From the NCBI RefSeq assembly GCF_900110555.1, contig NZ_FOEE01000007.1, forward strand, positions 62,001-126,000: a DNA stretch of 64,000 nucleotides. The letters run 5' to 3'. The position numbers were made by a program, and so were the translations under genes. Source of the stretch: Trujillonella endophytica (GTDB lineage Bacteria > Actinomycetota > Actinomycetes > Mycobacteriales > Geodermatophilaceae). Of the stretch, positions 48,266-50,554 are shown one piece after another; positions within the stretch are counted from its first letter, which is position 1, and each line of letters starts with the position of its first letter. Below the pieces are notes generated by a model. That model had not been told where the DNA came from, ran no database searches, and was given only the letters and a program-made list of their open reading frames with translations.

Positions 48266-48322
48266 GATCATCGGCGGGTGGCTGCCCTCCGCGGCGTGGC
48301 GGGCAGCCACCCGCCGATGATC
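48266..48322. repeat. 57-bp palindromic element, copy 1
   Basis: Perfect 21-bp arms begin GATCATCGGCGGGTGGCTGC and end with its complement GCAGCCACCCGCCGATGATC, around a 15-base loop. It lies between the aldo/keto reductase stop and the DUF559-type gene. It may serve as a terminator for the reductase gene. Confidence 0.9.
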
Positions 48323-48408
48323 GCCGCCGCGTCCACACCTCGTGGTCCGGTCCACAGATCCGCCGTCGCCCTCCCCGCGCGGCCGGCGGAAACGCAGCGT
48401 GCGCAGGC

Positions 48409-49266
48409 ATGGCCCTCCCTCCGACCTTCTCGGCCGCCTCCGCACGGGCCGCCGGCCTCACCCGCGCCCGGCTGCGCGGGCCCTCCTACCTCCGCCTCAC
48501 CCACGACCTCGTGGTGCGGCTGGACGACGCGATCGACCTCCGCGAGCGGCTGCAGCTGCTGGCCGCCGTCCTCCCCGCGGACGCCGCGTACAGCCACCGC
48601 ACCGCCGCCGCCCTGCTCGGCGCCTGGCTGGACCCGCCCGCCCGGCACCACGTCGCCCTGCGCCCGCGGCGCGTGCTGCCGCAGCGGGCCGAGCTCGTCG
48701 TCCACACGCGGGCGCTGACCACCGCCGACGTCGTCGAGCTGGACGGCCTGCGTGTCACCGCCGCCCCGCAGACGTTCCTCGACCTCGCGGCCGTCCTGCC
48801 CCCGGAGGAGCTCGTGGCCGTCGGCGACGCCTTCCTGCGGCGCGGGCGGACGACCCCGCAGCACCTCCTCCAGCGGCTGGCGCGCGCCGACCGGGTCCGC
48901 GGCGTCGTCCGGGCCCGGGCCTGCGCACCCCTGCTCTCGGGCGCGGCGATGTCCCGGCCGGAGAGCCTCATGCGGTACTGGCTCCTGACCAGCGAGCTGC
49001 CCGATCCGGTGCCACAGGTCCCCGTGCACGACCGCCGGGGGAACGAGGTCGCCCACGGGGACCTCGGCTATCCGCAGTGGCGGGTGCTGCTGGAGTACGA
49101 GGGCGCGCACCATGCGGACGCCGACACGTTCGGCACCGACATCGACCGCTATTCGCTGATGGCGGCCGACGGCTGGCTCGCGCTCCGCTTCGCCAAGCGA
49201 CACCTCAACCGGCCGACGGTGCTCGACCGCACCCGCCGGGCGCTGATGAGCCGCGGCTGGAGCTGA
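48409..49266 (+). CDS. DUF559/AbiEi-like protein with nuclease-type C-terminal domain
   Basis: 285 residues. The N-terminal half resembles the AbiEi-type antitoxin family: a winged-helix-like start, then YSHRTAAALLGAWLDPPARHHVAL. The C-terminal part has the PD-(D/E)xK pattern of DUF559/Vsr-like proteins: GDLGYPQWRVLLEYEGAHH, then DIDRYSLMAADGWLALRF. Such proteins are abundant and multi-copy in actinomycetes; no function is established. It is bracketed by 57-bp palindromes on both sides and stands alone, with no toxin partner. Confidence 0.8.
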   Translation: MALPPTFSAASARAAGLTRARLRGPSYLRLTHDLVVRLDDAIDLRERLQLLAAVLPADAAYSHRTAAALLGAWLDPPARHHVALRPRRVLPQRAELVVHTRALTTADVVELDGLRVTAAPQTFLDLAAVLPPEELVAVGDAFLRRGRTTPQHLLQRLARADRVRGVVRARACAPLLSGAAMSRPESLMRYWLLTSELPDPVPQVPVHDRRGNEVAHGDLGYPQWRVLLEYEGAHHADADTFGTDIDRYSLMAADGWLALRFAKRHLNRPTVLDRTRRALMSRGWS

Positions 49267-49303
49267 CCGGCCCCGCTACGACCCCCGGGTGGAGCCGAAC
49301 GGT

Positions 49304-49360
49304 GATCATCGGCAGGTGGCTGGACGGCGCGCCGTTAGGGGCAGCCACCCGCCGATGATC
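49304..49360. repeat. 57-bp palindromic element, copy 2
   Basis: The arms are GATCATCGGCAGGTGGCTG and CAGCCACCCGCCGATGATC, with a single mismatch. It lies between the convergent DUF559-type and aminotransferase genes, where it could terminate both transcripts. Confidence 0.9.
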
Positions 49361-49367
49361 GACCGGG

Positions 49368-50459
49368 TCAGCGGGCCAGGACCTCCCGCAGCGCGGCCAG
49401 CACCAGCGCCACGCGGTCGGGGCGGGCGTTGGCCCCCATCAGGCCGATCCGCCACACGGTCGAGGCGTACGCGCCGACGCCGCCGCCGATCTCCAGGTCG
49501 TAGCGCTCCAGCAGCTCGGCCCGCACCGCCGCCGACTCCACGCCCTCGGGGACGCACACCGTGGTGAGCTCCGGCAGCCGGTGCCCCTCGGCGGCGAACA
49601 GCTCCAGCCCCAGCTCCGCGAGCCCCTCGTGCAGCAGCCGGCCGGCCTCGGCGTGCCGGGCGTGCACGGCGTCCAGGCCCTCGTCGAGGATCCGGCCGAG
49701 GGCTGCGTGCAGCGACACGACCATCCCGGTCGGCGCGGTGTGGTGGTAGGTGCGCCCCCCGCTGCCCGCTGCCTCGCCCGCGTACCCGCCCAGCATGCCG
49801 AGGTCGAGGTACCAGCTCTGCGGCTTCTCGATCCGCTGCTCCCAGGCGCGCTCCCCGATGGTGAACGGCGCCAGCCCCGGCGCGGTGCCGAGGCACTTCT
49901 GCGAGCCGGAGTATGCGAGGTCGACACCCCACTCGTCCAGCCGGACCGGGATGCCCCCCAGCGAGGTCACGCAGTCGGCGAGCAGCAGCGCGTCGCCCTT
50001 GCCGGCGGCGAGCGGCTCCAGGTCCGAGCGGACGCCGGTCGAGGTCTCGGCGTGGACGGCGGCGATGAGCGTGGGCGACGGGTGCGCGGCGAGCACCCGT
50101 TCGGCGTCCACCGGCCGACCCCACTCGTGGTCGACCCGCACGACGTCCGCGCCGCACCGGGAGGCGACGTCCACCATCCGCTCGCCGAAAAGGCCGTTGA
50201 CGGCGACGACGACGACATCCCCCGGGCCCACCGTGTTGACGAAGGCCGCCTCCATGCCCGCCGACCCCGTGGCCGACAGCGGCAGCGTGCGCCGGTTCGC
50301 CGTCCCGAACAGCTGTCGCAGCCGGTCGGAGGTCTCGTCGAGGACCTCGAGGAACAGCGGGTCCAGGTGCCCGAGCAGCGGCTGCCCGAGGGCGACCGTG
50401 GCCTCCGGGTAGGGGTTGGAGGGGCCGGGTCCGAGCAGGGTGCGGGCGCGCAGCGGCAT
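49368..50459 (-). CDS. Class V aminotransferase (alanine/serine-glyoxylate type)
   Basis: 363 residues. It is a PLP enzyme of the alanine-glyoxylate / serine-glyoxylate / ureidoglycine-glyoxylate group. The N-terminus has LLGPGPSNPYPEATVALGQPLLGHLDPLF, the PLP-lysine region is LAYSGSQKCLGTAPG, and VWRIGLMGANARPDRV ends the fold. The amino donor cannot be assigned. A ureidoglycine role would fit the PucR/AllH genes at the left end, but they are 45 kb away. It stands alone between two 57-bp palindromes. Confidence 0.88.
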   Translation of the reverse strand: MPLRARTLLGPGPSNPYPEATVALGQPLLGHLDPLFLEVLDETSDRLRQLFGTANRRTLPLSATGSAGMEAAFVNTVGPGDVVVVAVNGLFGERMVDVASRCGADVVRVDHEWGRPVDAERVLAAHPSPTLIAAVHAETSTGVRSDLEPLAAGKGDALLLADCVTSLGGIPVRLDEWGVDLAYSGSQKCLGTAPGLAPFTIGERAWEQRIEKPQSWYLDLGMLGGYAGEAAGSGGRTYHHTAPTGMVVSLHAALGRILDEGLDAVHARHAEAGRLLHEGLAELGLELFAAEGHRLPELTTVCVPEGVESAAVRAELLERYDLEIGGGVGAYASTVWRIGLMGANARPDRVALVLAALREVLAR

Positions 50460-50497: not shown

Positions 50498-50554
50498 GAT
50501 CATCGGCAGGTGGCTGCCCGGCACGCCGGCGGGGGCAGCCACCCGCCGATGATC
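50498..50554. repeat. 57-bp palindromic element, copy 3
   Basis: The 21-bp arms begin GATCATCGGCAGGTGGCTGC and end GCAGCCACCCGCCGATGATC, with one mismatch. It lies upstream of the aminotransferase and its right end supplies part of the aspS stop codon. Confidence 0.9.

Follow-up and report, generated by a model that had tools for sequence, protein, structure and literature searches.

REP-like palindromes are common in bacteria, and in the parts of the cited papers on which we draw, their dedicated partners are RAYT-type tyrosine transposases only. In the RAYT/REP systems described there, syntenic orthologues occur with different classes of repeats, a situation covered by the terms "orthogroups" and "orthoswitch" (PMC3686654, PMC3733652). 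Some palindrome families have no known partner, according to the same portion of the latter paper (PMC3733652). We studied a nuclease-like gene of Trujillonella endophytica, for which the first-pass annotation of a 64,000-nucleotide stretch of DNA (hereafter the window; contig NZ_FOEE01000007.1, positions 62,001 to 126,000) had proposed a similar partnership with an enzyme of a class other than RAYT. Among the matches listed for the open-licence PMC literature, no title or abstract opening describes a partnership between palindromes and DUF559 or AbiEi proteins, and the terms RAYT, DUF559, and nuclease are absent from the main text of the RepRanger paper (PMC12306157).

The window lies on contig C10 of a genome of 4.87 Mb (G000). 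As the annotation had described, the nuclease-like gene is placed between two near-identical palindromes of exactly 57 bp each, and the next gene lies between the second and the third copy. The features are the following:

48266..48322, minus strand: type A palindrome of 57 bp (copy 1), 86 bp upstream of the nuclease-like gene (strand assigned from the asymmetric loop)
48409..49266, plus strand: nuclease-like gene, 285 aa, with an AbiEi-like part and a predicted Vsr/EDxHD-like nuclease domain (from the ORF, PADLOC, Pfam, and the fold)
49304..49360, plus strand: type A palindrome of 57 bp (copy 2), 37 bp past the stop codon of the nuclease-like gene
49368-50459, minus strand: class-V aminotransferase gene (Pfam family match), flanked by copies 2 and 3
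50498..50554, plus strand: type A palindrome of 57 bp (copy 3), a dispersed copy in the gap that separates the aminotransferase start from the 3' end of aspS

Over 60 nt, copies 1 and 3 are respectively 83% and 88% identical to copy 2; the arms are near-identical and the loops vary. An arm pattern allowing at most 3 mismatches has 8 matches in the window, 6 of which are the arms of the three copies, against 0.12 expected, and none of 100 shuffles reached 8 or more. The RNA fold z-scores of the three copies range from -5.8 to -9.6 over both strands, and none of the stems has a run of T on its 3' side. The other neighbour of the nuclease-like gene is aldo/keto-reductase-like, and its orthologues match a second such gene (AKR2) at about 30%. 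The gap between the aminotransferase gene and aspS, which holds copy 3, is occupied or empty depending on the relative.

The type A palindrome is dispersed in the genome. A covariance model built from 22 copies places it at no fewer than 33 distinct places (66 rows over both strands), which is a minimum because 150 of the 24521 first-look candidates were scored. The 22 aligned copies, picked by one intact arm, are all 57 bp long. Their consensus is GTTGATCATCGGCGGGTGGCTGCCCG.C.CGCCGG.GGGGGCAGCCACCCGCCGATGATCAAC, where dots stand for undecided letters, with GTTGATCATC at the 5' end and GATGATCAAC at the 3' end. The base of its stem bears neither a GTAG nor a CGTC tag; by reading, CGTC stands immediately before the stem, on its left side, in 4 of the 22 copies. 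When genes were called with a GC3-based method, 26 of 27 copies were intergenic (13 between convergent genes, 8 between tandem genes, 1 between divergent genes, and 4 unassigned). The stems show no covariation above shuffles (83.6% paired versus a shuffled mean of 84.3), a comparison to which the low variation leaves little power, and conservation of an RNA structure was rejected on this ground. The involvement of a RAYT was likewise rejected because a profile search with PF01797 (Y1_Tnp) gave 0 matches in the genome. A loose arm pattern with 2 mismatches was uninformative (88 and 87 matches versus 72 and 61 for the reversed control). A broad palindrome pattern also matches coding DNA (2-4 times per genome, by reading), and we therefore used a stricter type A pattern for the counts below.

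The label "DUF559/AbiEi-like" given to the protein in the first pass is correct. Three AbiEi models of PADLOC match (E=1e-11 to 5e-10), but the DUF559 part of the label is weak by sequence, with Pfam PF04480 reaching E=0.0098 and 16.2 bits, below the cut-off of 20.6 bits. Searches of PDB sequences and of PHROGs with the 285-aa protein gave no significant match. The fold was modelled with AlphaFold2 from 8 sequences (pLDDT 88.7, pTM 0.83), and the protein can be divided into the following parts:

48409..48534, plus strand: residues 1-42, N-terminal part, putatively named a winged helix-turn-helix; the most divergent stretch between palindrome types
48535..48939, plus strand: residues 43-177, AbiEi-like domain (VIA-align Z 12.4 to AbiEi 6y8q, 129 aligned, rmsd 3.2; PADLOC AbiEi models)
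48955..49260, plus strand: residues 183-284, putative nuclease-like domain (Z 10.2 to the catalytic domain of the homing endonuclease I-Bth0305I, 3r3p, 93 aligned, rmsd 2.3; Z 7.9 to Vsr, 1vsr, 92 aligned, rmsd 2.4; conservation)

AbiEi is also the top Foldseek match of the model (E 1.2e-5), and the putative endonuclease 3hrl matches it with Z 9.7. The sequence identity to I-Bth0305I and Vsr is 13-16%. All 91 aligned family proteins share six residues (E185, D218, E229, H235, R247, and R260), and 90 of them have D244; these residues may form an active site of the EDxHD type, with E185, D218, H235, and D244 as putative counterparts of the motif. The predicted fold is that of an AbiEi-like part fused to a nuclease resembling Vsr and homing endonucleases.

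The first-pass annotation had allowed that the arrangement of gene and palindromes might be coincidental; the association recurs elsewhere. Homologues at E<=1e-20 are found in 104 of the 112 genomes of the bacterial family. The orthologue is bracketed by palindromes in all five of the named relatives, which are Geodermatophilaceae (Klenkia brasiliensis, Blastococcus capsensis, Geodermatophilus sabuli, Candidatus Blastococcus massiliensis, and Blastococcus sp. CT_GayMR19); those of the last two species listed differ in sequence and measure 66 bp. We then compared 95 close loci, i.e., the window and 94 genes at 47-74% identity, and also took 6 distant paralogues. Generic hairpins (score >=14) occur upstream of the gene in 53, downstream in 54, and on both sides in 37 of the 93 loci with enough flank. 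The background elsewhere in the same loci is 31 hairpins in 668 kb, or 1.3% per 280-bp window per side. The control genes RarA (0 of 61) and AKR2 (0 of 27) have no hairpin on either side. AT5 (a hairpin upstream in 4, downstream in 19, and on both sides in 3 of 36 loci) and AspS (downstream in 23 of 55 loci) are not independent controls because they border the palindromes under study. A row for the upstream aldo/keto-reductase-like gene (3 loci) was left out of the controls because its query used an incorrect frame. Seven type motifs, built after inspection of these flanks, detect palindromes on both sides in 65 of the 95 loci, and of the same type in 62, versus 4 of 408 null windows. These figures are for a cut-off of 0.7, the only one used because at 0.6 the null windows climb to 57 of 408. 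The other 30 loci are without a confident palindrome on one or both sides. The median distance of the family palindromes is 101 bp upstream of the start and 10 bp downstream of the stop.

The position of the gene, which had been expected to be fixed in all relatives if there were no partnership, is fixed in part: RarA, the aminotransferase, or AspS adjoins it in 71 of the 95 loci, and none of them does in the other 24, of which 4 lie on short stretches. Two genes outside this common site, L130 and L143, are also bracketed, the latter with palindromes on both sides in a different neighbourhood. Five loci have, between the aminotransferase gene and aspS, a palindrome whose type matches that of the resident gene: the window, L129, and L146 (type A), L153 (A2, by reading), and L211 (C). 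A rule of orientation (upstream copy on the minus strand, downstream copy on the plus strand) was dropped, as it holds in 11 of 22 type A pairs and is not general in types B, C, and E. Types A, A2, B, C, and E, which differ in their arms, share a GACACGC-like motif around the loop that may be a part found in all of them. The loci L201, L204, and L208 have additional long hairpins of unrelated sequence (e.g., with arms GACTCAAGGACCCCTTGTGCC and CTCCTGCGGTGCCGCTGGC), possibly further families.

The type of palindrome follows the phylogeny of the protein. On a tree of 96 rows (93 family proteins, after removal of 2 of the 95 as short, and 3 paralogues as outgroup), the labels (seven types and the outgroup) require 12 changes, where the minimum is 7 and the mean of shuffled labels is 46.1; none of 200 shuffles was as low. 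The 14 untyped loci among the 95 were left out of the type counts and of the pair comparison. The two palindromes of one gene resemble each other with a median score of 39 (44 genes, including 6 untyped distant homologues whose cross pairs were counted as same type), those of different genes of the same type with 31 (358 pairs), and those of different types with 10 (1534 pairs). In the alignment used for conservation and identity, which is without 4 of the 95 proteins, residues 1-40 are 60% identical within types versus 34% between types. The corresponding values are 0.598 versus 0.385 for residues 1-105 and 0.712 versus 0.640 for residues 121-284. Among pairs with a C-terminal identity of 0.70-0.75, the N-terminal identity is 0.603 in 226 same-type pairs and 0.396 in 301 different-type pairs; such pairs are non-independent, and because type correlates with the protein phylogeny, the N-terminal signal is not independent of the phylogeny either. 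The simplest reading of these sequence comparisons is that the N-terminal part would read the palindrome. One locus of genome G028, L176, has a type C-like palindrome upstream and a type A palindrome downstream, possibly a type switch under way.

The presence of the gene is associated with the number of palindromes found away from it. Dispersed type A copies occur in 25 of the 27 genomes with a gene of the A clade (median 4, mean 5.6) and in 25 of the 85 without one (median 0, mean 0.8). For type C, they occur in 15 of the 24 genomes with a C-clade gene (mean 1.7) and in 13 of the 88 without (mean 0.25). When gene presence was permuted within genera, the observed value was reached in 0 of 5000 permutations for each of the two types. 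Within the genus of T. endophytica, the pattern finds 29 type A copies in G000, 27 of them away from the gene, and 0 in G109 and G110, which have no orthologue. Copy numbers outside G000 are low (type A median 4, type C mean 1.7). There are exceptions in both directions. Eight genomes have four or more type A copies and no A-clade gene (G017 and G028 with 7, G044 with 6, G012, G014, and G104 with 5, G029 and G111 with 4); on the assumption that the RAYT model applies, as given in the available part of its source (PMC3686654), such copies would be relics or switches. Conversely, two genomes that carry an A-clade gene, G066 and G081, show no type A copy away from it, and 9 of the 24 genomes with a C-clade gene have no dispersed type C copy by this pattern. 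Moreover, 12 of the 24 genomes with a C-clade gene have type A copies, a larger share than among those with neither gene (13 of 61), so that the type A association is not perfectly specific. Genome G044 was counted as being without a type C gene, though a broken one exists, an error that works against the association. This gene (L309, G044:C358) is split across two reading frames and lies between C palindromes; by pattern, 5 (forward) or 7 (reverse) C palindromes remain in that genome.

The search for strains without the segment, which the first-pass annotation had suggested, gave a partial answer. The orthologue is missing in both congeners, G109 and G110, and neither offers a clean junction for an empty cassette site, because other genes occupy the gap. 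A dispersed copy beside the 3' end of aspS shows one case of presence or absence (L134 versus L145, L144, L205, and L162), with a junction too unclean to define a target-site signature.

The genome of T. endophytica has 11 DUF559/AbiEi-like genes at E<=0.001, i.e., the window gene and 10 paralogues. The expectation that other copies of the family would be flanked by the same palindrome failed: type A flanks 0 of the 10 paralogues, and the nearest type A copy is 5.4 kb away. Three paralogues (30-37% identity) each lie between a different palindrome of their own:

G000:C15:34428-35258: paralogue L060, own palindrome on both sides
G000:C27:222260-223048: paralogue L061, own palindrome on both sides
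G000:C17:339346-339990: paralogue L068, own palindrome on both sides

The palindrome of L060, the one type searched for dispersal, is found at 8 places, 6 of them away from the gene, after manual grouping of 27 matches. A strong hairpin lies close to one side of each of the paralogues L064, L067, and L069, and a weak one close to L065; the flank scan revealed no hairpin of note around L062, L063, and L066. Between its aminotransferase gene and aspS, the congener G110 has a palindrome (L306:4450-4520) that by reading resembles the one upstream of L064, and different palindrome families would therefore settle in one intergenic gap.

We also fetched segments blind, from pairs of palindromes. In G005, two palindromes of new sequence lie 1062 bp apart, and the segment contains a previously unlisted family protein (HMM E 6.9e-35). 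The second segment, from G008, has two G005-type palindromes 3.3 kb apart and no family gene within 10.5 kb:

G008:C42, L310:4266-4321: G005-type palindrome
G008:C42, L310:7579-7633: G005-type palindrome

The blind test thus consists of two segments, one success (G005) and one failure (G008), as a third segment, from G044, had a known partial match. In a sample of the phylum, homologues at E<=1e-10 were found in 27 of 149 genomes. Distant homologues (38 countable among 40 loci) have a hairpin upstream in 8 cases, downstream in 8, and on both sides in 4, with 0.75% expected per side; the other 34 lack a hairpin on at least one side. In L229, L231, L236, L241, and L260 the arms are alike on the two sides by eye, with one hairpin below the cut-off in L241 and in L260. 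Two loci from Micrococcales MAGs have hairpins on both sides (L075) or downstream (L076). Outside the family, bracketing is present and far from universal.

The proposal of a nuclease-repeat partnership with an enzyme class other than RAYT is sustained as an association: PF01797 is absent from the genome, the brackets are of the same type, types fit the protein tree, and presence of the gene predicts copies. We infer the binding, cutting, and movement. On balance, we hold it probable that this is a gene-repeat partnership that resembles REP/RAYT but has an unrelated nuclease as its enzyme. Recognition of the long palindrome (57-75 bp) would fall to the N-terminal and AbiEi parts, perhaps in a dimer. 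According to the part of the report available to us, I-Bth0305I forms a dimer on a target nearly 60 bp long (PMC3943268), which would suit a palindrome of 57-75 bp. The C-terminal nuclease domain of the Vsr/EDxHD type would then cut or nick at or near the palindrome, and repair or recombination could copy the latter to other, mainly intergenic, sites. The two bracketing copies would keep the gene linked to the repeat, so that a change in the recognition part would bring a change in the bracketing palindrome; a new dispersed family would grow while the old one decays. Whether the arrangement represents a widespread and unreported class of palindrome propagation in Actinobacteria, in which AbiEi-Vsr/EDxHD fusions would each have a long palindrome of their own, with several pairs per genome and the N-terminal part setting the target, is in our judgement evenly balanced.

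Among the alternatives, we consider it unlikely that the protein binds DNA in the manner of AbiEi to regulate genes or organise the genome, with the palindromes as co-evolving operators or anchors and a nuclease domain that is dormant or used in repair. AbiEi proteins are DNA-binding antitoxins, and the AbiEi-like fold and the way in which palindrome type tracks the N-terminal part would both fit such a role. The invariance of the putative active-site residues in 91 of 91 proteins would not, nor would a downstream palindrome at a median of 10 bp past the stop, which is not the position of an operator. Moreover, only 1 of the 27 copies in T. endophytica is divergent while 13 are convergent, and operators alone do not explain the gain of several intergenic copies with the gene. 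A homing-like selfish nuclease would cut chromosomes without the cassette or palindrome, recombination copying the gene with its brackets and leaving dispersed palindromes as by-products or decoys. A homing endonuclease domain is indeed among the closest nuclease folds (Z 10.2), the gene is patchy and missing from both congeners, some genomes hold two or more lineages, and 24 of 95 loci are at other positions. Yet most genes keep one position and follow lineages, and dispersed palindromes do not follow from homing alone, which makes this scenario quite improbable to us.

We disfavour, as very improbable, the view of the palindromes as ordinary terminators of transcription or repeats of the host, in a bracket inherited along with its neighbourhood. 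The stable hairpins and the location of the copies (26 of 27 intergenic, 13 convergent, mostly at gene ends) are what one would expect of terminators. Against this, the three stems of the window have no following T run, and the sequence of the arms is itself conserved, not merely their pairing, as judged from the comparison with shuffles described above, which has little power. The palindrome type also tracks the nuclease-like gene and brackets it off the common site (L130 and L143), and the controls RarA and AKR2 are without hairpins.

A widespread class of this kind, if it exists, would be a second, non-homologous solution to the role of RAYTs. A nuclease whose palindrome changes with its recognition part would be a candidate enzyme for repeats that have no partner, and would provide a natural series of matched enzyme-target pairs for the study of long-palindrome recognition. 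It may also be a reason why some Actinobacteria hold many DUF559/AbiEi-like genes, such as the 11 of T. endophytica, and it opens the origin of dispersed palindromes to direct tests.

The components of the system have counterparts in several described ones. VsrA of Caulobacter, a candidate repair endonuclease, has a DUF559/Vsr-like fold, as stated in the accessible part of its description (PMC12907096), whose main text has, in contrast to the present subject, no word beginning with "palindrom". Residues 43-177 resemble the AbiEi antitoxins of AbiE systems (Z 12.4 to 6y8q, PADLOC E 1e-11); here, however, the adjacent genes look different from an AbiEii nucleotidyltransferase toxin, one being aldo/keto-reductase-like and the other coding for a class-V aminotransferase, and the AbiEi-like protein carries a predicted nuclease domain. 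The predicted fold of residues 183-284 is that of I-Bth0305I and Vsr (Z 10.2 and 7.9), whereas identity is 13-16%, the DNA-binding part is another one, and the bracket is a repeat of the gene's own. In TIRYTs/TIRtrons and CGTC REPs the terminal repeats around a gene also form repeat families; TIRYTs are tyrosine transposases, though, and CGTC precedes the stem in just 4 of 22 copies here. Compared with RAYT/REP systems (REPtrons, REPINs; TnpA-REP), no Y1/HUH domain was found in the genome, the enzyme is a predicted AbiEi and Vsr-like nuclease, and the palindromes are single units of 57-75 bp, few in number and with no constant GTAG or CGTC tag. Because the RAYT enzyme and the constant tag are absent, we do not file the locus as a RAYT system. 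What it shares with them, as they are described in the parts available to us, is a gene bracketed by palindromes of which further copies are scattered through intergenic DNA, syntenic orthologues that have different repeat classes at their flanks (PMC3686654, PMC3733652), an abundance of repeats that depends on the cognate gene, here with exceptions, and relic repeats in genomes without the gene (PMC3686654).
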